Shown: positions 4,657-22,426, counted from the stretch's first letter. The stretch: DNA of 45,980 nt from an uncultured Nitrospiraceae bacterium (GCA_903822005.1 CAIJNL010000019.1:1-45980), one strand, 5' to 3'. Notes: generated from the letters alone by a model not told the origin. Program-made: numbers and translations.

Positions 4657-4686
4657 AATATAGATGAGAAGAGGCAATCGTGTCAA
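4657..4686 (-). promoter_or_regulatory. promoter of the leuA leader
   Basis: Minus-strand -35 TTGACA (4681-4686), 18-nt spacer, -10 TATATT (4657-4662). The predicted transcription start is at or next to the A of the ATG at 4650. That gives a leader of about 160 nt before leuA. Confidence 0.8.
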
Positions 4687-4729
4687 GAAAGTTTCTTTTT
4701 GCTGTAATCTGCAACGGCAGATAATCCGA

Positions 4730-4758
4730 TTGCAGCAGTTCCGATACTCACATATAAT
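4730..4758 (+). promoter_or_regulatory. promoter of the S26 peptidase gene
   Basis: -35 TTGCAG (4730-4735), 17-nt spacer, perfect -10 TATAAT (4753-4758). The predicted start of transcription lies about 4 nt before the ATG at 4769. No Shine-Dalgarno sequence can fit, so the mRNA is nearly leaderless. It diverges from the leuA promoter about 45 nt away. Confidence 0.7.
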
Positions 4759-4768
4759 AGTGGTTACT

Positions 4769-5266
4769 ATGAAATCCAGCGGCCGTGACATAATTGTCGA
4801 CAATGAAGCAGTTATTGAACTGCTCAGGGCCTCCATGTCAAAAGGGGCAGCTTTTTCGTTCAGGGCAGGTGGATTCAGCATGTCACCCTTCATTAAGGAC
4901 GGCGATTTGATAACCGTATCACCCTTCGGCGACATGCCGCCGGATAAAGGTGATATAGTCGCATTTTTGAGAACGACAAATAATAGCCTCACTGTGCACA
5001 GGTTAATAAAGCGGCAAGGCATTGATATCATTATGAAAGGTGATAACTCCCGGTCAGCGGACCTGCCCGTAAGCGAGTCCCAATTGTTTGGGCGTGTTAC
5101 AGGCATAAAACGCGGAGATTCGGGCAAGCGACTCGGGATCGGGCCTGAAAAGCGGATACTGGCGGGGCTTAGCCGGATGGGAATCTTGATGCCGCTGCTG
5201 CGCCTGACCAGGCTGTTTCTCCTTCCAATAATCTCAATCAAGAAAAAGTCCCAAAAAGCCTTATAA
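4769..5266 (+). CDS. S26-family signal peptidase (Ser/His type)
   Basis: 165 residues. The S26/S24 fold is marked by GGFSMSPFIKDGD, with the likely nucleophile Ser37. GDIVAF and TVHRLI follow, with His77 as the likely base, then MKGDN (about 89-93). The VHR motif in place of the bacterial SPase lysine points to the archaeal/ER-like SipW subgroup (S26B). There is no N-terminal membrane anchor. A hydrophobic stretch at 137-156 may tether the C-terminus. The frame extends 35 codons further upstream, but the ATG at 4769 fits the promoter and the family start. It heads the secreted protease/radical SAM locus. Removal of a leader from an exported protein or from the small peptide encoded at 10825 is a reasonable guess. 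Confidence 0.8.
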   Translation: MKSSGRDIIVDNEAVIELLRASMSKGAAFSFRAGGFSMSPFIKDGDLITVSPFGDMPPDKGDIVAFLRTTNNSLTVHRLIKRQGIDIIMKGDNSRSADLPVSESQLFGRVTGIKRGDSGKRLGIGPEKRILAGLSRMGILMPLLRLTRLFLLPIISIKKKSQKAL

Positions 5267-5433: not shown

Positions 5434-8400
5434 ATGAAGACAACATTATTTGAGAGCAGGCTGGCGAAGATAATAATTTTAATCTGCTTTGGCATTCTGC
5501 TGGCAACGATGCTGCCGGGGACGGTTTTTTCAGGCGGCATGCCGCAAACAGAGTTGAGGACGCCGCGCGGCAGCGGCGCAGCTTTGGCAAGAGGAGACTA
5601 TGTAAGCTCCAGCGCCGGGCTGAACACTTATTATTCCTATTTTATAGAGGTGCCTCCTGGCACAAATAATCTTACTGTTGATGTATTTGATCCAGATATC
5701 TCAGGAAACTTCGACTTGCCAAATACCCCGGCTAGCAATACCACAGTAAGCTATCAAGTATTTGCTCCGGGAGCAACAACAGCAACAGCAACACTCACTT
5801 GCGGCAATGGAACATGCAGCGATAATGGCTGGCAAACCGTAGCTACAGTTCCGGGGATTGTCGCCGCTGGTCACTGGGAGTTCAGGATGAATATGTCGTC
5901 CGCTATAACAAATGGTGATGAGCTCAATGGCTTTGCGGTCAGGGCAATGGATACTAGCTCAACAAACCCTAAAGAACTGAACATGTATGCCAGATCATTT
6001 GACGCGCCCGGTCATGACGCCAGCTTCGGCACTGATAATTTAGTGGCACACGTCTATCCATATGTAACGTCCGGGTGCGGTTTTACCTTTAATGAGTTTG
6101 ACTATGACACAAGTGATACAAGGTCAGGCGGCAGTGTTCATATTGCCAGCCGGTCAGGTGGTTTTTCACAAGACTTAGCAAATGCGGATTTATCAATTGA
6201 CAGTCAATGGGGATATCATGATATTCCAGGTACTGGAACCGCTTGGAGATCGGACACATCGGCGGCTGATTATGGCATATGGTCTGCCAATTTAACAATA
6301 TTGGGAAACAACATTGTGACCTATTATTTTGGCAATTTTAACTCGACAAAAACGCCGCCGACAGCTCAGCCTCAGGCGAATACTTTTCGCACATATATGC
6401 CGACGAGCGCCGGCGGAGCGCCTGTAAAGCCTTTTGTTATGCAGGGGTTGTCATATGTATCAGGTACGAATCCTCCTGCTAATGGTTCCACTTCTTACCT
6501 CAGGGTGCAGGTGGATGTAGTGAATCCGACACCTTTTGCAATAACCTTCTCGACCAGCAATCTAGTGAGTGCTTATGTTCCGGGCGGGCAGGTGCGCTAC
6601 TACACAACTGCAAATCCCCCTACGGTAACTCAGGGGAGCATTATATCGCATCCCGCGAACCTCGCCAACGGCGGCGCAGCCATCACATGGAATCCGGGGA
6701 CACTGGCTGCCGGCGCGACAGCTAGTATGACATATGATATTAGGGTTATACCGAATTCTACAAACAGGCTAGCAGTAACCGGCACGCCCGCATCTAATGG
6801 GACGACCGCTACATATGTAGACGAGACAGGCAATACCACGCAGGTCATTGCAAAGTACATCTTTGGACCTTTGTGCGAACTGGCTGTTACTCCGGGGACA
6901 GCGGTGCCTACACTCGCCACTATTTCGTCATTCAGCACATATGCAGTTGGAGGTAAGGTGGTGGTAGACTGGCAGACCTCATCAGAGATAAACACAGTAG
7001 GTTTCAGGCTCTACAGGCTTGAAGGGGGCAATTATGTGCCTGTGAGAGATTCCATGCTGCCGGCCGGCTTTAGTCATCACAAGAAGGGCCATTACCGGAT
7101 AGTTGACAGTGGAGTAACCTCGGGGCAGAAGATTACCTATAAGCTGGTAGAGATAGAGAGCCGGGGCAAGACACGGGAATACGGGCCGTACGAAGTGACC
7201 CCTGTGAACAGCTCTTTTGCGCAGGCAATGCCAACAAGTTTCAGCAAGACCCATACGGATAGTGCCGAGGCCAAGGGGCTAAACCGCATACAGAAATTTA
7301 GAGTTGCATCGGCAACAAAATCGGGCAGTATGATCCGTATGGAAGTGAGCGAAGACGGCATATACGCGCTTGATACAGCAAAGATAGCGAGCCTGCTTGG
7401 TATGTCTCAGGCATCTGCGGCGAAGCTGCTTAGCGGCAATCAGCTTAATCTGACCAACCGCGGAAAGCAGATTGCTTATTTGCCTGACATGCAGAACAAC
7501 CGCATTCTTTTCTATGGACAGGCCATCAAGACGAACTATACCGATGAGAATGTATACTTGTTGTCCGTAGGCAGCGGCAGGCAGATGGGGCAGGGTGGAG
7601 GAGTTGCCGTGCAGCCCGGCACAGCACAGGGTAGCTTTGTCTGGACAACGCATTATGAAGAGAACAATTATATGAACACCTTTTTTGCGGATGACCCGAA
7701 CGACAGATACTGGTTCTGGGATTATGTAATAGCCGGGGACCCGGTAGACGGCGTCAAAAACTTCAACTTTCAGGTGAGCAATGTTGTGGGTGGTGATTCG
7801 AGCATATTGCTGAACCTTCAGGGCGTACTGGATGTGGGTCAGAAGGCGCTAGTGAGCCTCAACGGCACTAGCATAGGCAGTGCAGTTTGGGACGGGCATA
7901 CTGCCAAATCAGCAAAGCTGACTGCTGGTGCGGGCCTGCTTAAAGAAGGCATCAACACACTAACGGTAACAGGAGCTGACAGCAGTGTATTTTTTGTGGG
8001 GTCATTCGACGTTACATATAACAGAAGCTATATAGCGCAGGGCAACGGCCTGGCGTTCAGCGGCGGCCAGGGAGGCAAGATCACAGTAACCGGATTTACC
8101 GGCAGCGATATCAGGGTATTTGATATAACCGATCCTGCCACGCCAAAGGTTGTGCCGGTCGTAGTCAAGAACGGGAGCATAGGACTCAGGACTGATGGGG
8201 CCAGCAGCAACTACATTGCAGCAGGCAGCGGCGCGATCAAGGCAGTAGCCTCGACAAAAGCGAGCAATATCACATCGCTGAGGAATCACGGCAACCGCGC
8301 TAACTATGTGATAATCACAACTGAAGAGCTGAAGTCAGCGGCAGCATCCCTTGCAGCATACAGGAATACACAGGGCTACAGTACCATGATAGCCACAGTA

Positions 8401-9360
8401 GAAGATATAATGGATGAGTTCAACAACGGCATATACAGCCCTGAGGCCATAAAGTCTTTTATAAAAGCGGCGTATACGGACTGGGCGGTACCGCCGAAGT
8501 ACATAGTACTGGCAGGCAGCGGCTCTTCCGACTATAACGACTATTGGGGATATGGCGGGCAGCAGGTACCGCCTGCGCTGGTGACTTCGCCTGACGGACT
8601 TCTCGTGTCCGACAACTACTATGTGGATATAGACGGAGACTATGTGCCGGAGATAGCGATAGGGCGGTTGCCTGCATCCAGTGCAGCAGAGCTGACCGGA
8701 ATAATCAACAAAATAATCTCATACGAGAACAGTTCTTCAGGAGACTGGACAGCAAAGGCCCTTTTGATTGCCGACGTGCCTGATAACGGAGGTGACTTCA
8801 ATCAGGGAGTTGACGATGCAGCATCCTTGTTCCCCAACGCATATTCGCTTATCAAGCTATACGGATCAGATCTGACGGCTACAGATATGCATACTGCCAT
8901 AATGGCAGCGGTAGGCAGCGGGACCGGTATAATTGATTATTTCGGCCATGGCAATATTGATGGTTTGTCACTTGACAATATATTCACGACGGAAGATATT
9001 GCAAATATGGGCAATACAGGCCGCTTGCCTGTTATAACCGCCATGACATGTGTAGTTAATAACTTTGCATTGCCGGGGGTAACATCATTGGGAGAGGCAT
9101 TGGTGCTGAACCCGACGGTAGGCGCAGTGGCGGTATGGAGCGCTACAGGCTTATCTGATGATGGCATGGCGGTGAAGCTTAACAGGGCTTTTTACAGCAC
9201 CCTGTTTGAGGGCAAGGTGGATCTGTTAGGCGATCTGGCGATGGCAGCCATCAAGAAGGCCAATCTTGGCAAAGATAACGGATATATGAAGTACATGTAT
9301 CTATTGCTTGGAGACCCGGCAATGAAGGTAAAGGTGCCGGCAGCAGCAAAAAAGAGATAA
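5434..9360 (+). CDS. secreted C25 (gingipain-like) cysteine protease
   Basis: 1308 residues. An N-terminal signal peptide (hydrophobic 12-30, cleavage near VFSGG) sends it out of the cytoplasm. Beta-rich regions fill about 35-480. A fibronectin-III-like segment (about 495-590) reads VVVDWQTSSEINTVGFRLYR. A gingipain-propeptide-like region with EVSEDGIYAL follows. The C25 caspase-like domain covers about 949-1308 and keeps the catalytic pair: His1172 in DYFGHGN and Cys1206 in TAMTCVVNNF. C25 enzymes are extracellular endopeptidases, and the best known are the Arg/Lys gingipains. The C-terminus ends in a basic AAAKKR tail, and I see neither a T9SS sorting domain nor a PEP-CTERM anchor. It has its own promoter and ribosome binding site and is followed by a strong terminator. 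It is co-oriented with the PqqD/radical SAM genes, so it may act on, or be matured by, that system. Confidence 0.85.
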   Translation: MKTTLFESRLAKIIILICFGILLATMLPGTVFSGGMPQTELRTPRGSGAALARGDYVSSSAGLNTYYSYFIEVPPGTNNLTVDVFDPDISGNFDLPNTPASNTTVSYQVFAPGATTATATLTCGNGTCSDNGWQTVATVPGIVAAGHWEFRMNMSSAITNGDELNGFAVRAMDTSSTNPKELNMYARSFDAPGHDASFGTDNLVAHVYPYVTSGCGFTFNEFDYDTSDTRSGGSVHIASRSGGFSQDLANADLSIDSQWGYHDIPGTGTAWRSDTSAADYGIWSANLTILGNNIVTYYFGNFNSTKTPPTAQPQANTFRTYMPTSAGGAPVKPFVMQGLSYVSGTNPPANGSTSYLRVQVDVVNPTPFAITFSTSNLVSAYVPGGQVRYYTTANPPTVTQGSIISHPANLANGGAAITWNPGTLAAGATASMTYDIRVIPNSTNRLAVTGTPASNGTTATYVDETGNTTQVIAKYIFGPLCELAVTPGTAVPTLATISSFSTYAVGGKVVVDWQTSSEINTVGFRLYRLEGGNYVPVRDSMLPAGFSHHKKGHYRIVDSGVTSGQKITYKLVEIESRGKTREYGPYEVTPVNSSFAQAMPTSFSKTHTDSAEAKGLNRIQKFRVASATKSGSMIRMEVSEDGIYALDTAKIASLLGMSQASAAKLLSGNQLNLTNRGKQIAYLPDMQNNRILFYGQAIKTNYTDENVYLLSVGSGRQMGQGGGVAVQPGTAQGSFVWTTHYEENNYMNTFFADDPNDRYWFWDYVIAGDPVDGVKNFNFQVSNVVGGDSSILLNLQGVLDVGQKALVSLNGTSIGSAVWDGHTAKSAKLTAGAGLLKEGINTLTVTGADSSVFFVGSFDVTYNRSYIAQGNGLAFSGGQGGKITVTGFTGSDIRVFDITDPATPKVVPVVVKNGSIGLRTDGASSNYIAAGSGAIKAVASTKASNITSLRNHGNRANYVIITTEELKSAAASLAAYRNTQGYSTMIATVEDIMDEFNNGIYSPEAIKSFIKAAYTDWAVPPKYIVLAGSGSSDYNDYWGYGGQQVPPALVTSPDGLLVSDNYYVDIDGDYVPEIAIGRLPASSAAELTGIINKIISYENSSSGDWTAKALLIADVPDNGGDFNQGVDDAASLFPNAYSLIKLYGSDLTATDMHTAIMAAVGSGTGIIDYFGHGNIDGLSLDNIFTTEDIANMGNTGRLPVITAMTCVVNNFALPGVTSLGEALVLNPTVGAVAVWSATGLSDDGMAVKLNRAFYSTLFEGKVDLLGDLAMAAIKKANLGKDNGYMKYMYLLLGDPAMKVKVPAAAKKR

Positions 9361-9383
9361 ATAACAATACCATGTGACAAAGC

Positions 9384-9426
9384 GGCCCTTTACACAGTAT
9401 GCGGATCTCTGTAAAGGGCCCTTTTT
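9384..9426 (+). terminator. intrinsic terminator after the C25 protease
   Basis: An 11-bp perfect stem (GGCCCTTTACA at 9384-9394 against TGTAAAGGGCC at 9410-9420) followed by CTTTTT. It separates the protease transcript from the pqqD operon, which starts 34 nt later. Confidence 0.85.
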
Positions 9427-9459: not shown

Positions 9460-9747
9460 ATGGCAGATAGGGTTTATAGGCAAAAAGAGGGAATAGTTTC
9501 CAGACAGATAGCCGGGGAAACTATTCTTGTTCCGGTCATGGGCAGCCTGGCAAGCATGCAAAAAATATTCATGCTAAACGGTATTGGTGAGTTTATTTGG
9601 GATAGGCTCGACGGCTTAAAGAGTCTACGCAGTATAAGTGAAGAGATAGGAGAGCAGTTCGGTCTTGGCTCAGAGCAGGCGTTCGCTGACAGCGAGGAGT
9701 TTGTGCTGGAGTTGCTCAGGGAAGGACTGGCGGAAGAGGTGGCGTAA
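9460..9747 (+). CDS. PqqD-family peptide chaperone
   Basis: 95 residues, the normal size of a stand-alone PqqD (RiPP recognition element). The family binds the leader of a ribosomally made peptide and presents it to a radical SAM enzyme. Visible features are the N-terminal beta-rich part (GIVSRQIAGETILVPV), the conserved LNGIGEFIWDRLDG segment, and the C-terminal helices with ISEEIGEQFG and FVLELLREGLAEE. The gene ends 2 nt before the radical SAM gene, a tight coupling that supports a joint complex. HprK-related kinases with PqqD partners are a known but uncharacterised association. The ribosome binding site is weak (AGGG about 13 nt upstream). Confidence 0.9.
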   Translation: MADRVYRQKEGIVSRQIAGETILVPVMGSLASMQKIFMLNGIGEFIWDRLDGLKSLRSISEEIGEQFGLGSEQAFADSEEFVLELLREGLAEEVA

Positions 9748-9749
9748 AC

Positions 9750-10811
9750 ATGGAATGTGCTGTCAGGCCGGACAACATCTTTTTCCGCGACTTTATCGAT
9801 AAGGCCAAGCAGCAACGATTGCCACTGGCGGGGGGTATTGACCTCACATCTAGATGCAATCTGAGTTGTGTGCATTGTTATGTTCAAAGAGGTTCAGATG
9901 AGCCTGAGATGCCCACCAGCCGCATATTGGAGATTGTAGACGAGATTGCCGCAGCCGGTTGTATGGACATGCTTGTAACAGGAGGCGAACCCCTGTTGCA
10001 TGGGGATTTTGTCGAGATATACCGATACATGAAGTTTAAGGGTATGCTTGTTACGGTATTTACAAACGGTACGCTTGTCACTGATGAGATAGCAGCGCTG
10101 TTTGCGGAACTGCCGCCATATGCGGTAGAGATAAGTCTTTACGGCGCAACTGATGCAACGTCTGACAGCATAACCGGCGTCGAGGAATCCATGAGCAAAT
10201 GCCTGGGAGGCGTGAAAAAGTTGCTTGGACATGACGTAAAAAATGTGCTCCTGAAGACCATGCTTATGACCTCCAATCGGCATGAGTACTATGCAATGGA
10301 GGCATTGGCGGTCAAGATGGGCCTTAAGTGGCGTATGGATGCGGCTATTAATGCGAGAGTTAACGGAGATACGGGGCCGCTTTCTCTGCGCGTATCCGCT
10401 GAAGAGGCAATCGAAAAGGAATTTGCCCTTGAAGCTAGGTTGCTCGATATGAAGAAATATTATGAGAGCTGTGTCGCGCTGCCTGCCGGAGATCGGCTTT
10501 ATGTCTGCGGGGCGGGTGTTTGTGGTTTTCATATAGACGCCTACGGCAATCTGCTCCCATGTCTGATGCCGACAGGCATTAAATACAGGTTAGAAAAAGG
10601 CAATTTTCTCGATAGCTGGCACAGTGTAATAAATGATATACTGAATAAAAGGGCACGGAAAGACTATCCGTGCAGGGGCTGCAAGTATGTGGCGTTGTGC
10701 TGTGCCTGTCCGGCAGTTTCAGGTCTCGAAACGGGGGATGAGCAGAAGCCATCGGCATATATGTGTGAAATGGGAAAGTTGCGATTTGAGGCAATTAAAA
10801 AGTTAGCATAA
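9750..10811 (+). CDS. radical SAM/SPASM peptide-modifying enzyme
   Basis: 353 residues. The radical SAM cluster motif is Cys36-x3-Cys40-x2-Cys43 (RCNLSCVHC), followed by the GGEPLL SAM-binding motif. The C-terminal SPASM region begins with YVCGAGVCGFHIDAYGNLLPC and ends with PCRGC, LCCAC and YMCEMG, enough cysteines for two auxiliary Fe-S clusters. Family members (PqqE, AnSME, thioether-forming maturases) use a 5'-deoxyadenosyl radical to crosslink or oxidise side chains of small peptides or proteins. The neighbours, PqqD two bases upstream and a three-cysteine peptide 13 nt downstream, make that peptide the likely substrate. Thioether formation on Cys34, Cys47 or Cys52 is the obvious hypothesis; the sequence alone does not show which residues react. 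Confidence 0.92.
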   Translation: MECAVRPDNIFFRDFIDKAKQQRLPLAGGIDLTSRCNLSCVHCYVQRGSDEPEMPTSRILEIVDEIAAAGCMDMLVTGGEPLLHGDFVEIYRYMKFKGMLVTVFTNGTLVTDEIAALFAELPPYAVEISLYGATDATSDSITGVEESMSKCLGGVKKLLGHDVKNVLLKTMLMTSNRHEYYAMEALAVKMGLKWRMDAAINARVNGDTGPLSLRVSAEEAIEKEFALEARLLDMKKYYESCVALPAGDRLYVCGAGVCGFHIDAYGNLLPCLMPTGIKYRLEKGNFLDSWHSVINDILNKRARKDYPCRGCKYVALCCACPAVSGLETGDEQKPSAYMCEMGKLRFEAIKKLA

Positions 10812-10824
10812 TTAAGGAGGTTAT

Positions 10825-10995
10825 ATGGATGCCAAAAAGATCAAGAATTCGAAGGCGGCGCAATATGAGAAGCCGACCTTGAGGATAATAGAACTGGCTG
10901 CCGAACAGGTGCTGGCTGGGAAATGCAAAACGTCGCAAGGTGCGTCTAATCTCCGTGGGAATTGCGCCTTTAATACCTGCTTTGCGCGAACATAA
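10825..10995 (+). CDS. putative RiPP precursor peptide, three cysteines
   Basis: A 56-residue frame with a perfect ribosome binding site (AAGGAGG, 5 nt before the ATG), placed between the radical SAM gene and the kinase. The N-terminal half is a leader: Lys-rich, then YEKPTLRIIELAAEQVLAG. The YxxPxL pattern at Tyr14-Pro17-Leu19 is the motif that PqqD-type recognition elements bind in lasso and related precursors. The C-terminal core runs from about Lys33 and holds Cys34, Cys47 and Cys52, with Gly, Ser, Asn and Thr in between. It ends Phe-Ala-Arg-Thr56. The leader/core break is probably after LAG31-32. No known family name is certain. The arrangement leader motif + PqqD + radical SAM/SPASM strongly supports a modified peptide, and the modification itself is unknown. 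Confidence 0.85.
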   Translation: MDAKKIKNSKAAQYEKPTLRIIELAAEQVLAGKCKTSQGASNLRGNCAFNTCFART

Positions 10996-11013
10996 TAATT
11001 GCCAAGTGTCGCT

Positions 11014-11943
11014 ATGTGGGAGAATGGACAGGGGATGCCTGGTTCTTGTATTGACTTTAAGATCGCCAATATAATAATAAGGATTGAAACTGCGCAACCT
11101 GTAGAAATCTGCGTATCAGACCCGGCATATGAATCGTTTATTTCAGAGGCTGCAAGGGAGCAGGGCAGTGATTTGGAGCTTAAGGTAGACTTGGATGGCC
11201 TGCCAGATTTAAGAGGTATGTCTTCTTTTGGCGACGCGGAAGACGAGTGGGATATATATACAAGAGATGGCGACTATTTTGTAATAAAGAAGCAATATCG
11301 TGCAGATATTCAACCGTTATGGGTGTTGCAGTTGCGAAGCGATTTTGAACGTGGCACGCTTTATTGCAGGCCTGAAATAGCAGAAGCAGCCCAAAATGAC
11401 GGCTTGCTTGAGAATCCACTTTGCTATCCTCTGGACACTACGCTGATGATGTACAGGCTGACGATAGAAGGTGGAGTTATTGTCCACGCGGCGGGTATAG
11501 AGATAGACGGCAGGACATACATATTCCCCGGCAAGTCTGGAGCAGGCAAGAGCACAATATCGCGTCAGTTCAGCAATAATGAAGATGTAATATGCTTGAG
11601 CGATGACCGCATTATTGTGAGAAAAGAATGCGGTCATCATATTGCATACGGAACGCCTTGGCCGAGCGACGTGCAGATTGCGATTAACAGGGGCGCACCG
11701 CTGGCAGGTATAGTCTTTTTGTCCCACGCAACTGAAAACAGCATCAGGCGCATAACTTCTGCTGAGGCCTTGCAGAGGTTCATACCAACAGTCTCTATTC
11801 CGTGGTACGATCGGCAGGCAAGCGACATGATACTCTCTTTTTGCGATGGTCTGCTATCAAGCATTCCTCTGTATGAAATCAGCTTTTGCCCCGGCCCTGA
11901 AGTTGCTGATTTTTTTGTCGATACTTTCAGAAAGCATATTTGA
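11014..11943 (+). CDS. HprK-like kinase of the peptide locus
   Basis: About 309 residues, similar to the C-terminal kinase half of HPr kinase/phosphorylase. The P-loop is GKSGAGKS (about 173-180), followed by CLSDDRIIV (Asp197-Asp198), the HprK-type metal-binding region. VHAAGIEIDGRTYIFPG precedes the P-loop, as in HprK. The N-terminal 150 residues do not resemble the HprK N-domain and may bind the substrate. No HPr gene is nearby. In the paeninodin lasso-peptide cluster an HprK homologue phosphorylates the C-terminal serine of the precursor, so the C-terminal Thr of the peptide encoded just upstream is a candidate target (inference). The start is uncertain: TTG 10999, ATG 11014 and ATG 11035 are all in frame, and only 11035 has a GGGAG upstream. 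Confidence 0.82.
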   Translation: MWENGQGMPGSCIDFKIANIIIRIETAQPVEICVSDPAYESFISEAAREQGSDLELKVDLDGLPDLRGMSSFGDAEDEWDIYTRDGDYFVIKKQYRADIQPLWVLQLRSDFERGTLYCRPEIAEAAQNDGLLENPLCYPLDTTLMMYRLTIEGGVIVHAAGIEIDGRTYIFPGKSGAGKSTISRQFSNNEDVICLSDDRIIVRKECGHHIAYGTPWPSDVQIAINRGAPLAGIVFLSHATENSIRRITSAEALQRFIPTVSIPWYDRQASDMILSFCDGLLSSIPLYEISFCPGPEVADFFVDTFRKHI

Positions 11944-12171: not shown

Positions 12172-12591
12172 ATGACAAAAGTATTGATGTTTAGTCTTGT
12201 TATTGCAAGTTTGCTGATACAGGAAACCACGTTTGCGGCTGAAGTGTCAAGAGACCCTTTGAAGCAGGAAATTGCACAGAAGGCAAAGGAAAATAAAAAC
12301 GATATAGATCCTGTAATAAGCGAACTCTTGAAGAAGGGCACTGAACCAAGGACGCTCGTCAGGTCATGCATTGAGATGGGATATGAAGCATGCAAGGTCA
12401 CAACCGTGGCATTGCGGGAAAAGGCCGATCGCCAGATGGTTATATTCGGCGCCCTGGATGGAGGGGCTACAAATGAGCAGTTGAGTCTATGCGAAGGCCT
12501 TGGCTACGCTTATGATCCGCCGGCCAGCATAGAGGGCCTTAATCCTACGCCCCCAAGACCAGTATCGAACGGTATACCAGGGGCAAGATAA
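12172..12591 (+). CDS. small secreted protein, unknown function
   Basis: 139 residues. The N-terminus is a clear signal peptide (KVLMFSLVIASLLIQETTFAAE, cleavage near TFA-AE), so the mature protein of about 120 residues is periplasmic or released. The mature part is helical and charged (LKQEIAQKAKENKNDIDPVISELL), with Cys residues in RSCIEMGYEACK and SLCEGLG that could form disulfides. The C-terminus is Pro-rich. The ATG at 12172 has GGAGGTG upstream and defines the signal peptide; the 40-codon in-frame extension to 12052 would bury it. It lies 57 nt before the outer-membrane barrel gene, probably in one transcript. I do not recognise a family. Confidence 0.75.
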   Translation: MTKVLMFSLVIASLLIQETTFAAEVSRDPLKQEIAQKAKENKNDIDPVISELLKKGTEPRTLVRSCIEMGYEACKVTTVALREKADRQMVIFGALDGGATNEQLSLCEGLGYAYDPPASIEGLNPTPPRPVSNGIPGAR

Positions 12592-12648
12592 AAGTAGATA
12601 ATTAAATAGATAGATAGCTAAATTAACAAACAGGGGAAAAAGGGATTA

Positions 12649-14172
12649 GTGAAAGGGTTTGCGCTATTATTGGCAATAATGGTACTTATGCCAGCAGCTC
12701 TATGGGCCGGCGATGCAGTATTGCCCGACAATATTATTATGCCTCCGGGTGGCGGCAGTCAGCCGCAGCGCGTATTGCAGGCCGGTCCTCCAGTCGATGT
12801 CTTGGCGCCCGGACAAATTACTGCTCCGCAGCAGGTTACGCAGTCTGCGGCTCCTGAGATTCCGAAATCGTCAAGTGCTCCCGCAGATGCATCTCAGTTG
12901 CCCGCTACATCTCAAGCGGCAGGCCAGCCCGAGACTTCAGGCGAAGCTCCGCCGATGGGACAATCGACCGGTTCAACCGGATCATCAGGAGATCTGCTTG
13001 AGAAGAAAAGCAACATAGTGCATCCCTTCCTTGCTGTGGGAGGATATTTCACGGACAACGTTAACAATTCTCACACGGACAGAAAGAGCGATTTCGGTAT
13101 GGTCCTGTCGCCTGGCGTATACTTCGCCCTGCCCGGCATGAGACAGCGTATTACTCCGACTGGAACGCTCAATATAGCGCCGGGTGGCGCAAATCTTACC
13201 GGTTTCAGGCCGGACTACGCAATTCCACTGCAGTCTTATCTCTATTACAGGGCCGATATAGAGGCGTTTGCCAATAACAGCTCACTTAACACTGTCAGTC
13301 ATCTTGTTGAAGGCGTGGTCCAGTCCAAATTCAGGGGCGGGCTCAATATAAATTTCGAAGATCAGTTTAAGATGACACATAATCAGCGCGGCACCGGCCT
13401 GTCATTCGGCCTGGACAAGTTTTATGACAATCTGGCGAGTATTTCGGCCAAGTATCAGCTTGGTGAAAAAACGCTCGCCAGGCTTGATTATTCGAATTAT
13501 TATCTGCATTTTCTCGGCGCGGAGAACAGTTTCAGGGACCGCGATGACAACAGGGTGGCCGCATACTTTTTTTACAAAATGTGGCCCAGGACATCGGTTT
13601 TTGCAGAGTATGAATACGTGAATTCTGCTTATAGTGATAAAACCGTATCGGGCAGTATGGAACACCATATTTTCGTTGGCGTTAGATATGATGTGACGGA
13701 CAAGACTAGGGGAATGATCAAGGTTGGATACGGTATCAAGGACTTCGAGCGCTCTTCTTTGAGGTCTCAGTCGAATATCTATGCAGAGGCACAGCTTGAC
13801 CATAAGTTTACCGAGAAGACATCAATTATCCTTACCGCTTCCAGGCGGACAGACGAAACCGATGTTGCAACGGCCTATTCGATTGTTGAAAATACGATCG
13901 ACGCGACATATCTGCAGAGATTGACAACAAAGCTTACAGCGAGTATCAACTTCAGATTTACCGATGAGAAGTACAACGGCAACGTGACTTATGCGGGTGT
14001 TACCAAGATGCTCCATGATGAATACATCAGGACTGGTGCCTCCATGCTTTATGAATTCAGAGACTGGATCAATTTTACCGTCGGATATTATTTTACGGAC
14101 AGGATGTCGAACATAAACTCACTGAGTTACACGAGCAATAATATATTCTTCAGGATATCGGCCATTTATTGA
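12649..14172 (+). CDS. outer-membrane beta-barrel protein
   Basis: 507 residues from a GTG start with AAAAAGGGA upstream. A signal peptide (FALLLAIMVLMPAALWAGD) is followed by a Pro/Ser/Gln-rich low-complexity linker (about 25-115). The rest is amphipathic beta strands with alternating aromatic residues, starting HPFLAVGGYFTDNVNNS. It ends on an aromatic (RISAIY), the usual signal of an outer-membrane barrel. The YFTDNV motif and layout match the BBP2/PEP-CTERM-associated barrel proteins found in exopolysaccharide and secretion loci. As the last gene of the peptide/protease locus it could be the outer-membrane exit or receptor, which is an inference from position. Confidence 0.8.
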   Translation: MKGFALLLAIMVLMPAALWAGDAVLPDNIIMPPGGGSQPQRVLQAGPPVDVLAPGQITAPQQVTQSAAPEIPKSSSAPADASQLPATSQAAGQPETSGEAPPMGQSTGSTGSSGDLLEKKSNIVHPFLAVGGYFTDNVNNSHTDRKSDFGMVLSPGVYFALPGMRQRITPTGTLNIAPGGANLTGFRPDYAIPLQSYLYYRADIEAFANNSSLNTVSHLVEGVVQSKFRGGLNINFEDQFKMTHNQRGTGLSFGLDKFYDNLASISAKYQLGEKTLARLDYSNYYLHFLGAENSFRDRDDNRVAAYFFYKMWPRTSVFAEYEYVNSAYSDKTVSGSMEHHIFVGVRYDVTDKTRGMIKVGYGIKDFERSSLRSQSNIYAEAQLDHKFTEKTSIILTASRRTDETDVATAYSIVENTIDATYLQRLTTKLTASINFRFTDEKYNGNVTYAGVTKMLHDEYIRTGASMLYEFRDWINFTVGYYFTDRMSNINSLSYTSNNIFFRISAIY

Positions 14173-18487: not shown

Positions 18488-21400
18488 ATGCTAAAAAGAA
18501 AAAAGGTGGGCGAGTACGCGGGGAAGGACAAGAGAATATTGGAGCGGCCTTTTTTCGGCTCCATTGTGCCAGCGGTCAGCTCTTTCTTTATTTGTATTTT
18601 TGCGATATGCATGTTTTGTTTAATCTCTTATACATCTGCTAGTGCGTGTAGTGAGCACCCATGGGGAGGCGAAGGGGTAGCTTGTAATATCGGGCCTCAT
18701 ACTGCTTCTGATTTTTATACGAAAGGATCAATTTTACAATACTCTGTCCAAGAAAATGATCATTTGAAATACTATTCATACGTCATTCCGGAAGATGGGT
18801 ATTATGTTGCTGTAACTACCAAGACGGACATGCTTGGTGGAATAAATGGTGATATTTATTGTGAACCTGACTGCTCACATTGGTATGGGAGTTGCCAGCC
18901 ACCTGCTCCGACACAAGTTGGATGGGATGCCATTGTTGCGACTCCGACAGCCCAAGCTTCATGGTCATATGAGATATGGGGTGGAGAATGCGTAATATAC
19001 GGGACTGCTTCTAGTACATATCAAATTTACGCAAAGTTTCTTGCACGAAGCAACACCGACACCAACGACACAGGCGATCCATGTAATAACAGTGTCCCTG
19101 CCGAATCCTCAGCCAACTTGGCGAGCGGCAATCTTTATCATTCCCAGAAGGTAGCCGGGCTTGCCTTCTCTTACAACAGCATAGACCCGTACTCTGGCCC
19201 ACTGGGTAAGGGCTGGACCCACAACTTCAACCTCTCGATTACCCCGCAAAGCAACGGGACTCTTTTACTTAAAACTGGCGACGGTAACAACTTCTACTTT
19301 TCTCTTGCAATCGGTATATACACTCCCGCCGCAGGCAATGGCGATACTTCAACTATTGTCGCAAACACAGGTGGCAGTTATACCCGCACACAGAAAAACG
19401 GCATTGTCCAGACCTTTAACTCCGTCGGCAATCTAACCTCCATCACAGACAGAGATGGTAGAACCGCAACCCTTGCATATAGCGGCGGCAATCTTACGAG
19501 CGTTACAGACCCAAATGGCAGGGTGACTATATTCACATCGTCTTCCAATAAGATAACTTCAATCACCACCCCCAATGGCGGGGTTTATACTCTTGCTTAC
19601 TCTGGCGAATATCTGAGTTCAATCACCGACCCTCTCGGCAATGCATGGCAGTATACCTATAACTCCAATGGCAACATGCTCACAAAGACAGATCCTCTGG
19701 GCAATCTCGTATCTTATACCTACGACTCCACAGGCAGACTGCTGACATCCACTGACCCTGAAGGCAAGACCAGAGCCATGAACTACACCCAGTCGGGCAA
19801 TACATCCTTTACCGAAAAAGACGGCGGTGTCTGGACATATACATACGACACGACACTCCTTGCCAAGACCCAAAAGATAGACCCTCTGGGCAATATCACG
19901 AAATATGCCTATGACTTAAACAGAAACCTTATATCCGAAACTGCACCAGACAACAGCGTAACAGCTTATGCCTATGATGCAAACAGCAACCTGACCTCTT
20001 TAACCGACCCTCAGGGCAACAAGACCAGCTATACCTATAACAGCCTGAACCTGGTCACCTCCATAACAGACCCAAAGACCGTTGTTACTTCGTTGACCTA
20101 TGATGCAAAAGGCAATCTGACAAAGATAACCGACCCTCTGGGGGGATCAAGGACATTGCAGTATGACGCCAAGGGCAATGTCATCTCACTCACCGACCCC
20201 AAGGGTGCCGTCACTTCATTTGCCTATGACGCACAGAACAATCTGACCAGCATCAAAGACTCTCTGGGCAACATCACCTCATTCACCTATGACGCTGCGG
20301 GCAACAGGCTGACCATGACCGACCCTCTTGCCAATGTCACCCACTATGCCTATAACAGCCTTAACCAGATGACACAGGTCACAGACCCCAAGGGCAACAT
20401 CACCCGGTTCACTTATGACTATAAGGGCAATGTGCTCACCACCACGGACGCAAACAACAACCCGACAAACTATGCATATAACTACCGCGGGCAGGTAACC
20501 CAGATAACCGATGCCCTGAACAACATCACAAGGCTAAACTACGGGGCAACTGGATGCAGTGGCGGATGCAATGGCGGAGCAGAAAAGCTAACAGCCCTGA
20601 CCGATGCGCTAAACAACATAACCAGCTATAGCTATGACCTGTTGGGCAGATTGTCCACAGAGACCGACCCGATTGGCAACGTGAACTCATATCAATATGA
20701 TGTAAAGAGCAATCTCACAAAAAAGACAAGACCTGACGGCACCAACATTGTCTACACATATGACCTTGCAAGCAGGCTGATACAGAAAACATACCCTGAC
20801 GGTAATGTTGCAGCTTTCCAGTATGACCAGGTTGGCAATATGACCTATGCAGGCAATCAGCATATTGCATACAACATGGTTTATGACGCCAACAGGCGGC
20901 TGAGTAGCATAACAGACTCAAATGGACGAGTCATCAAATATACATACGACAGCCTGGGCAACAGGACCCAGCTAACCTATCCGGATAATACAAAAGTGAA
21001 CTATGCCTATGACACTGCAAGCAGGCTGACAGGCATTGCGACCTTGCAAGGAACACTCGGCACCCTGAACTGGACATATGCGTATGACAGCCTGAGTAGG
21101 AGGACAAAACAGACTAACCCCAATGGCACCTCTGCAAACTACGCTTATGACCAGGCAAGCGGGCTCACCAGTTTGATCAATACTTTTTCGACCGGAGCAG
21201 TTATCAGCGGCTACAACTATACCCTTGATAATGTCGGCAATCGGCTTACCAAGGCCGACCAGAACGAGCAGATTAATTATACCTACGATGCCGTATACCA
21301 ATTGACTCAGGCCCAGCCGACTGCAAGTGCCCATGAAACATACTCCTACGACGCTGTGGGCAACAGGTTAATCGGCCCCAAGCCTCATAGGAAATATACT

Positions 21401-22426
21401 TATGATCATGCAAACCAGCTTGTCACAGAGAACAAACAGCAGTTCCAGCACGACGTGCATGGAAACCTCATTCAGCACATTAACGGCACGACAACTTTCA
21501 GCTATACTTATGATTATGAGAACCGGCTTGTACAGGCAGAAAAGAACGCAAACGGGATCATAACCATGGCACAGTATAAATACGACCCGTTTGGCCGGCG
21601 TATAGAGAAGAGTGTAACAAAAGATGGCGACACTGACACGACGAAATATGTTTATGACGGTGCTAGCATTATTGCCGAATATGACGAGACTAACGCACTG
21701 GGCAATCGCTACATTCAGGGTTTGGGTATCGATGAGCCTCTTGCAGTGCTGAAGAACAAGAATGTACATTATTATCATGCAGACGGTCTTGGTTCGATAA
21801 CAGCCTTGACTGATAAAAAACAGAATGTAGATGAAAGATTTGAATACGATTCCTTCGGAAAGATGACTCATACTGGATCGGTAGATCAACCGTACGCTTT
21901 CACAGGCAGGGAGTGGGATAAAGAAATGGGGATGTATTACTATCGTGCCAGATATTATGATGAAAAAACCGGGAGGTTTATTACTAAAGACCCAATGGGA
22001 TTCGGTGGCGGTGATGTGAATCTCTACCGCATGACTGATAGTGTCGGAAAACCCGCGCCCGTTGTAAATCCATATTGGTATGTCGATAGTGTCGGAAAAC
22101 CATGGCCGCTGACGAGTATGGGGCAGTTTATAGGCAATTCGCTTATGCTGCAATCCAACTTATACATTTACGCCGCAAACAATCCGATTAATAATACAGA
22201 TTCATCAGGTATGATATTAGACAATATTAAATGTTTTTATTATATGACTAAATGTGCGCAGGAAGCTTTAAAATGCAAAGAGAAAATGGAAAAGGAATCT
22301 AAATGCGATCCAGATAATGTGGATAAAACTCCTACTTCAGATAAATTATTTAAAGAATGTTGGCAAGGCACACCCGCATGTCAAAAGCAAATTGAAGCCT
22401 GCGGATCATATGTTCTTTCTCCTTAG
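18488..22426 (+). CDS. RHS/YD-repeat protein with short cysteine-rich C-terminal tip
   Basis: 1312 residues. A basic N-terminus and a hydrophobic segment (about 30-52, SSFFICIFAICMFCLISYTS) form a signal peptide or anchor. A Cys-containing beta domain follows (about 55-185). An RHS-type entry region (NLASGNLYHSQ, GKGWTHNFNLSI) leads into about 35 YD repeats (YTYDS.GN...TDPLGN) across roughly 300-1090, which in the family wrap into a hollow shell. The conserved RHS core motif is RYYDEKTGRFITKDPMGF (about 1155-1172). The end differs from neighbours: after LYIYAANNPINNTDSSG a 71-residue, Lys/Glu-rich, AT-rich tip holds seven cysteines. RHS tips are usually toxins released by autoproteolysis; this one matches no toxin I know. 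Two small membrane proteins follow directly and could be immunity or accessory proteins. Confidence 0.92.
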   Translation: MLKRKKVGEYAGKDKRILERPFFGSIVPAVSSFFICIFAICMFCLISYTSASACSEHPWGGEGVACNIGPHTASDFYTKGSILQYSVQENDHLKYYSYVIPEDGYYVAVTTKTDMLGGINGDIYCEPDCSHWYGSCQPPAPTQVGWDAIVATPTAQASWSYEIWGGECVIYGTASSTYQIYAKFLARSNTDTNDTGDPCNNSVPAESSANLASGNLYHSQKVAGLAFSYNSIDPYSGPLGKGWTHNFNLSITPQSNGTLLLKTGDGNNFYFSLAIGIYTPAAGNGDTSTIVANTGGSYTRTQKNGIVQTFNSVGNLTSITDRDGRTATLAYSGGNLTSVTDPNGRVTIFTSSSNKITSITTPNGGVYTLAYSGEYLSSITDPLGNAWQYTYNSNGNMLTKTDPLGNLVSYTYDSTGRLLTSTDPEGKTRAMNYTQSGNTSFTEKDGGVWTYTYDTTLLAKTQKIDPLGNITKYAYDLNRNLISETAPDNSVTAYAYDANSNLTSLTDPQGNKTSYTYNSLNLVTSITDPKTVVTSLTYDAKGNLTKITDPLGGSRTLQYDAKGNVISLTDPKGAVTSFAYDAQNNLTSIKDSLGNITSFTYDAAGNRLTMTDPLANVTHYAYNSLNQMTQVTDPKGNITRFTYDYKGNVLTTTDANNNPTNYAYNYRGQVTQITDALNNITRLNYGATGCSGGCNGGAEKLTALTDALNNITSYSYDLLGRLSTETDPIGNVNSYQYDVKSNLTKKTRPDGTNIVYTYDLASRLIQKTYPDGNVAAFQYDQVGNMTYAGNQHIAYNMVYDANRRLSSITDSNGRVIKYTYDSLGNRTQLTYPDNTKVNYAYDTASRLTGIATLQGTLGTLNWTYAYDSLSRRTKQTNPNGTSANYAYDQASGLTSLINTFSTGAVISGYNYTLDNVGNRLTKADQNEQINYTYDAVYQLTQAQPTASAHETYSYDAVGNRLIGPKPHRKYTYDHANQLVTENKQQFQHDVHGNLIQHINGTTTFSYTYDYENRLVQAEKNANGIITMAQYKYDPFGRRIEKSVTKDGDTDTTKYVYDGASIIAEYDETNALGNRYIQGLGIDEPLAVLKNKNVHYYHADGLGSITALTDKKQNVDERFEYDSFGKMTHTGSVDQPYAFTGREWDKEMGMYYYRARYYDEKTGRFITKDPMGFGGGDVNLYRMTDSVGKPAPVVNPYWYVDSVGKPWPLTSMGQFIGNSLMLQSNLYIYAANNPINNTDSSGMILDNIKCFYYMTKCAQEALKCKEKMEKESKCDPDNVDKTPTSDKLFKECWQGTPACQKQIEACGSYVLSP
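22037..22101 (+). repeat. 17-bp direct repeat inside the RHS core
   Basis: GATAGTGTCGGAAAACC occurs at 22037-22053 and 22085-22101, 48 nt (16 codons) apart and in frame. It encodes TDSVGKP and VDSVGKP. The repeat sits in a segment of about 48 residues that separates the DVNLY and YIYAANNPIN parts of the usually contiguous RHS core end. Confidence 0.8.

Follow-up and report, generated by a model that had tools for sequence, protein, structure and literature searches.

Introduction

Linear polyphosphorylated peptides (LPPs) have been described from the lpp cluster of Paenibacillus alginolyticus, where the RRE protein LppB presents the leader to the signal peptidase LppS, which cleaves it in an RRE-dependent manner, and the kinase LppK phosphorylates the core at Ser3 rather than at the C-terminus, Thr not being accepted in that position (PMC13381572). 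The core set of LPP genes is without a radical SAM enzyme, LPPs are reportedly restricted to Bacillota, and NTP transferases are the usual partners of the HprK-like kinases in LPP and paeninodin clusters (PMC13381572). Among the lasso peptide kinases, PadeK adds phosphate to the C-terminal Ser of the precursor, and ThcoK has the same target (PMC9266682). Two further systems are close to the locus presented here: the sactipeptides, with a SPASM maturase beside a Cys-containing precursor, and SynChlorMet (NCBIfam ScmC/ScmD/ScmE/ScmF, TIGR04248-TIGR04251), a named but uncharacterised peptide-modification cassette.

The locus was found in a stretch of 45,980 nucleotides from an uncultured Nitrospiraceae bacterium (the window). 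Its genes D-E-A-K encode, in this order, a PqqD-like protein, a radical SAM/SPASM enzyme, a 56-aa peptide with three Cys and an HprK-like kinase. By analogy, the cassette resembles the LPP and paeninodin systems in recognition, kinase and cleavage, and the sactipeptide system in its maturase. The products of D, K and a signal peptidase gene (SpI) would correspond to the toolkit of the phosphorylated LPP and paeninodin RiPPs, a link that the original prediction for this locus had overlooked, here combined with a SPASM enzyme that would replace the lasso cyclase. No description of the cassette was found in open-access papers, nor any open-access paper on SynChlorMet or on HprK in connection with radical SAM enzymes and RiPPs. 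As this coverage excluded preprints and most subscription journals, an unseen report is possible.

Results

Organization of the Locus

The four open reading frames originally predicted were recovered (Table 1), although the start of K at TTG 10999 was probably wrong. The true start is probably ATG 11035, since the model gave residues 1-12, counted from the TTG, a pLDDT of less than 50, and the ATG lies close to the start of most homologues. The limits first given for the unit (9460-11943) proved too narrow, because SpI and the gene for a C25 peptidase, both overlooked, also belong to it. A hairpin of -22.1 kcal/mol (z=-4.3; 0 of 200 shuffles were equally good) separates C25 from D; given this strong structure of the rho-independent type, D-E-A-K probably form a transcription unit of their own in the window. 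No compositional anomaly hinting at a recent transfer of the cassette was found.

Table 1. Positions of the features in the window, with the evidence for each.
Feature	Position	Strand	Evidence
SpI: SipW/archaeal-type signal peptidase, S26, putative leader peptidase	4664..5266	+	PF00717, TIGR02228
C25 peptidase, secreted, gingipain/PorU-like, cassette-associated	5434..9360	+	PF01364 E=4e-88
Hairpin and T-run between C25 and D, probable rho-independent terminator	9379..9424	+	folding energy
D: PqqD-like discrete RRE, predicted leader-binding protein	9460..9747	+	PF05402, profile, AF2 model
E: radical SAM/SPASM maturase	9750..10811	+	PF04055, invariant Cys set
Ribosome binding site AAGGAGG, 4 nt 5' of the ATG of A	10814..10820	+	sequence
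A: 56-aa precursor peptide	10825..10995	+	profile of homologous peptides adjoining E and K
Leader motif YEKPTL (YxxPxL, predicted RRE-binding motif)	10864..10881	+	P17 invariant, Y/W at 14
Predicted core CKTSQGASNLRGNCAFNTCFART: Cys34-Lys35, Cys47, Cys52, C-terminal Thr56	10924..10992	+	putative cleavage point
K: HprK/PEPCK-fold peptide kinase	11035..11943 (originally from TTG 10999)	+	residues, AF2, fold match

The Precursor Peptide

Gene A translates to MDAKKIKNSKAAQYEKPTLRIIELAAEQVLAGKCKTSQGASNLRGNCAFNTCFART. The perfect ribosome binding site (AGGAGG at 10815-10820), the YxxPxL leader motif (YEKPTL, residues 14-19) and the three Cys (34, 47 and 52) claimed for this peptide were all present. 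It had been stated that the interpretation would fall if the peptide, its Cys or YxxPxL were not conserved beside homologous enzymes; this was examined and conservation was found instead. The window peptide aligned with 16 homologous peptides of relatives (alignment A3), in which Pro17, Leu24, Cys34 and Lys35 were invariant and position 14 was Tyr or Trp. When a profile was made from 17 peptides of the cassette loci in the order, each of the 17 scored below an E of 1e-13, and the profile also picked up the peptides of L055 and L056, both outside its training set; in these two loci, the two most divergent, the peptide stands upstream of D. A similar peptide-only profile matched 43 of 296 genomes of the phylum and, together with the 16 aligned homologues, places A far beyond chance. 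When A was compared with NCBIfam, no family was found, and the sole Pfam match was at chance level (THEG, E=0.14).

YxKPxL...EEvLaxxC-K and a Ser or Thr at the C-terminus are common to the precursors, which as a rule have three Cys. The leader consensus is [YW]xKPxLxxIxLxxEExLxxx, and that of the core CK(T/S/V/L)...C-x(2-7)-C-x(2-8)-[Ser/Thr]. Three Cys were counted in 48 of 58 type I cores and Cys-Lys in 47 of 58, these counts being approximate, as the core start was mis-set by the script in a few rows. The conserved last residue had been overlooked in the original prediction: of the 80 precursors from all cassette types, with related rows among them, 71 ended in Ser and 4 in Thr (75 together), whereas Ser and Thr made up 18% of the core bodies. 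The five exceptions were four Anaerolineales peptides, whose loci have the K gene, and the peptide of L114, from the cultured Desulfosediminicola flagellatus, a relative with the cassette type of more than one rSAM. Apart from the last residue, Lys35 was the only near-invariant non-Cys residue of the core. No conserved thioether acceptor was visible in the core alignment, and no Ser of the aligned precursors was near-universal except at the last position.

A second precursor with an identical core was seen in one genome about 10 kb from its cassette (L174 285-455; G034 C9:117284-117457); the 10 kb of sequence that was read showed neither D nor E nor K.

Distribution of the Cassette

A search with E alone covered 100 genomes, the window's own among them. 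Clear orthologues (32-52% identity) turned up in 17 further members of the same order; the 30 other genomes of the window's own family contained none. These loci had D upstream and, contig permitting, a small ORF between E and K. Scanning the E alignment over one genome per species yielded 80 loci, spread over more than ten phyla and also found in archaea. The loci found with E or A that contained one rSAM gene and a peptide numbered 56 after removal of duplicates, again in more than ten phyla; D and K were each present in 54 of them, SpI adjoined the cassette in 47 and C25 lay near it in 27. Loci with A adjoining E came from Nitrospirota, Chloroflexota, Planctomycetota, Verrucomicrobiota/Kiritimatiellota, Desulfobacterota, Omnitrophota, Acidobacteriota and others.

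Additionally, a related type of locus had two or more rSAM genes and peptides of the form WxKPEL...PEExVLxxCK...S. Another type, seen in family f27 of the phylum (L181 6168-6566, L182 5885-6471 and L183 7018-7375), had more than one rSAM match, an HprK-like kinase, an SpI-like gene and one to three precursors, in tandem where there were several, with EQAILSxC and a C-terminal PS.

Predicted Leader Recognition and the Maturase

D was assigned to the PqqD family (PF05402, E=2.4e-12), and its profile matched TbiB1, PbaB1 (9x90) and LppB (9x8z) best, ahead of PqqD. Its AF2 model (pLDDT 89.9) gave TM-scores of 0.71-0.84 to the TbiB1-leader and TfuB1-leader complexes; the LPP structures 9x8z and 9x90 were absent from the Foldseek list for D, though found by the sequence profile. 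A discrete RRE and a YxxP leader would thus be features shared with the LPPs, as judged from the profile match to LppB and the fold match to TbiB1/TfuB1. The LPP precursor motif YxxPxVLxHQxIxFETxxS was nevertheless not found in A, which has only its YxxP part in common.

E matched Radical_SAM (PF04055) at 4e-20 and SPASM weakly in Pfam. Both its CX3CX2C motif (C36, C40 and C43) and a complete set of SPASM Cys (C253, C271, C308, C311, C317, C320 and C339) were invariant in 19 sequences. The nearest solved sequences were the sactisynthase SkfB (1.2e-27) and then PqqE (2.5e-20). The likeness to sactipeptides lies in this maturase and its Cys-containing neighbor; the cassette differs in its separate RRE, kinase, SpI and C25, and its thioether is putative. 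The window E formed a long branch in the rSAM tree (0.84), from which it appears that the function of this copy may have diverged.

The HprK-Like Kinase

K is a P-loop HprK-like protein with GxSGAGKST and GTPW. Numbered from the TTG, H163, K184 and D202 were invariant, followed by Asp or Glu at 203, which fits the His-Lys-Asp-Asp motif of the lasso kinases (PMC9266682). In fold comparisons the AF2 model (pLDDT 88.5) matched PEPCK with a Z of about 13 and HprK/P with a Z of 11.8 across 121 residues. By predicted fold and catalytic residues, an HprK-like kinase would therefore be common to the cassette and the LPP clusters. The paeninodin-type lasso system (PadeA/K/B1/B2/C) is likewise similar in having an RRE, an HprK-like kinase and a precursor with C-terminal Ser, but the cassette has a radical SAM enzyme instead of the cyclase; a scan of the genes between 4.6 and 14.2 kb showed neither a lasso macrolactam synthetase C nor a B2 leader protease.

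The Signal Peptidase

SpI matched Peptidase_S24 (PF00717, E=9e-10) and TIGR02228 (39.7 bits), and ATG 4769 is its likely start. Ser72, His112 and Asp127 were invariant among 16 homologues, with mostly Asp or Glu near 133, so that the product appears, from these residues, to be a SipW-like putative peptidase such as that of the LPP clusters. The gene usually stands directly 3' of K, and in the window upstream of C25; it was not found in nine of the 56 loci, some of which were cut by contig ends. Fusions of SpI to a GNAT acetyltransferase (L049 5423-6418 and L052 5754-6788), to NTP_transf_5 (L068 9114-10724) or to both (L066 3892-5973) were detected. These partners are enzymes that might modify a freed N-terminus or a phosphate, and the fusions support the view that SpI acts on the A-type peptide. 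In L050 the signal peptidase was fused with a weakly methyltransferase-like domain. A further likeness to the LPP clusters is the occurrence of NTP_transf_5 and an ABC exporter in some relatives of the cassette, with polysaccharide genes recurring near some loci; the genome of the window differs in lacking an NTP transferase of this family (PF14907).

The C25 Peptidase

The C25 peptidase of the window is the only one in its genome and has an N-terminal hydrophobic, signal-like stretch. The His and Cys of the catalytic dyad were invariant in 27 of 27 sequences. Among the 100 related genomes, strong C25 matches occurred in 13 of the 18 with the cassette and in none of the 82 others (Fisher 1.2e-12, with related genomes counted as independent); the gene adjoined the cassette in most of the 13 and lay on a separate contig in G036. 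In the rSAM tree the window fell inside a supported clade of 24, and C25 adjoined the cassette throughout this clade except in L059, where the contig is cut upstream, and L076. Its position varied by lineage, either upstream of D or downstream of K, and the downstream location in other clades suggests that C25 joined the cassette repeatedly. An ABC exporter of the tested type was found within 6 kb in 0 of the 27 loci with C25, as against 8 of the 29 without it. A tight link across the whole phylum was rejected: the association was weaker than in the order, and C25 also occurred in other families, in open frames of about 750-1100 aa and mostly without a match to the precursor profile, so that the link is not absolute.

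Discussion

It is probable, in our estimation, that the cassette is a RiPP pathway comprising leader binding, modification of a Cys-containing core, C-terminal phosphorylation, leader removal and the action of C25. D, the discrete RRE, would bind the YEKPTL leader of A, and E would modify the core by means of its radical SAM and SPASM iron-sulfur clusters, a thioether formed by at least one of Cys34, Cys47 and Cys52 being the most likely chemistry. K would move a phosphate onto the hydroxyl of the C-terminal Ser or Thr; this phosphosite is favored by the C-terminal Ser that PadeK targets and by the Ser or Thr at the end of 75 of the 80 precursors. The SipW-like SpI, guided by D, would cut the leader near the conserved Cys-Lys to leave a core of about 23 residues. 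At the cell surface the secreted C25 would have the exported product as its substrate or as its partner. The genes, their conservation and co-occurrence, the catalytic residues and the predicted folds are observed; we infer in which order the steps follow, which bond is formed, where phosphorylation and cleavage take place, what C25 does and that the parts yield one product. That D, E, A and K make up one modification pathway had already been proposed, and is supported by the co-conservation of D, K, SpI and A in more than ten phyla and by the fold matches of D and K. Against this reading stand the five C-termini without Ser or Thr, the core alignment without a visible thioether acceptor, the nine loci in which SpI was not found, the long branch of the window E and the 27 loci with C25 in which no ABC exporter of the tested type lay within 6 kb. 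LppK, moreover, acts on Ser3 of its core and rejects Thr there (PMC13381572), and the window peptide ends in Thr.

Within the same pathway, K might target a Ser near the core N-terminus or regulate the enzymes, the C-terminal Ser/Thr being used otherwise. We consider this unlikely: Ser3 is the target of LppK (PMC13381572), the window core contains Ser37 and Ser41 and ends in Thr, and the five exceptional precursors would be accommodated, but only the last Ser position is near-universal in the alignment and PadeK and ThcoK act precisely on the C-terminal Ser (PMC9266682). The modified peptide could also serve the C25 protein, as maturation factor, prosthetic group or inhibitor, and not be a free secreted RiPP. 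The lone C25 of the genome beside the cassette, the strong genome-level co-occurrence in the order, the placement that differs by lineage and the distribution of the exporter point in this direction; about half of the cassettes are, however, without a nearby C25, and the C25 genes of other families in the phylum mostly lack a precursor match; such a role is held to be unlikely. A bolder form of the preferred pathway is offered as a long shot: its product would carry a radical cross-link as well as a C-terminal phosphate, and the PorU-like C25 would be a transpeptidase attaching this product to the surface of the cell or to exopolysaccharide, replacing a dedicated exporter and maturation protease.

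The best NCBIfam match of D, E and K was in each case a SynChlorMet model, and a divergent SynChlorMet cassette would share the PqqD-like, SPASM and HprK-like parts and a nearby Cys-containing peptide with a WxKP-type leader. The scores were nevertheless far under the cutoffs (ScmD 33.8/100, ScmE 94.1/400 and ScmC 34.5/125), and no ScmC above cutoff was found in fifteen genomes of the related two-rSAM type either. Genuine ScmC genes do exist (171-326 bits), in loci mostly with two rSAM genes; SynChlorMet has two rSAM families (ScmE and ScmF) as against one rSAM in the window cassette, and the peptide at the genuine loci is of another family, Cys-containing and with a WxKPxL leader but with a core lacking EEVLxxCK. 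Membership was rejected on account of the widely missed cutoffs and the different peptide, and we hold it to be very unlikely. Still more improbable is that A gives rise to a small redox cofactor similar to PQQ or mycofactocin, the peptide being cross-linked or decarboxylated by E and degraded by the proteases to a few residues. The combination of PqqD and SPASM follows the logic of cofactor pathways, the mycofactocin maturase model gave E 94 bits, and PqqE was the second nearest solved structure; but a core that varies strongly around constant Cys and a constant C-terminal Ser would be unexpected in the precursor of a cofactor, the cassette includes a kinase and a putative leader peptidase, and no obvious cofactor-using enzyme was noticed among the recurrent neighbors.

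If the preferred RiPP pathway is correct, two separately known logics would be joined, SPASM core modification and the RRE/HprK-kinase/SpI toolkit of the LPPs and lasso peptides of Bacillota, and the latter system would be extended into many uncultured phyla. Compared with the LPPs, the features of the cassette's own are the SPASM enzyme, the three-Cys cores, the C-terminal Ser/Thr and, often, C25. Furthermore, a large set of orphan SPASM enzymes would be supplied with precursor peptides, an exact phosphosite would be predicted, and a secreted C25 peptidase would be tied to a peptide pathway.

Several observations were made beside these loci. Candidate precursors of true SynChlorMet cassettes, Cys-containing and with a leader of the WxKPxL type, were seen near ScmC genes above cutoff (L171 7787-7987 and 9665-9943, L172 9033-9317 and L173 10074-10355). 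Just downstream of the cassette (window 12172-14172) are a small secreted-looking protein and an EpsL/BBP2-like outer-membrane protein, kin of which recur beside the cassette in L042, L046 and L052; Wzc/Wza-type polysaccharide genes recur close to L042 and L052. An exopolysaccharide link of the cassette, as noted for LPPs, is possible. Further downstream, window positions 18488-22426 encode a large RHS-repeat protein (PF05593, E=1.6e-114).
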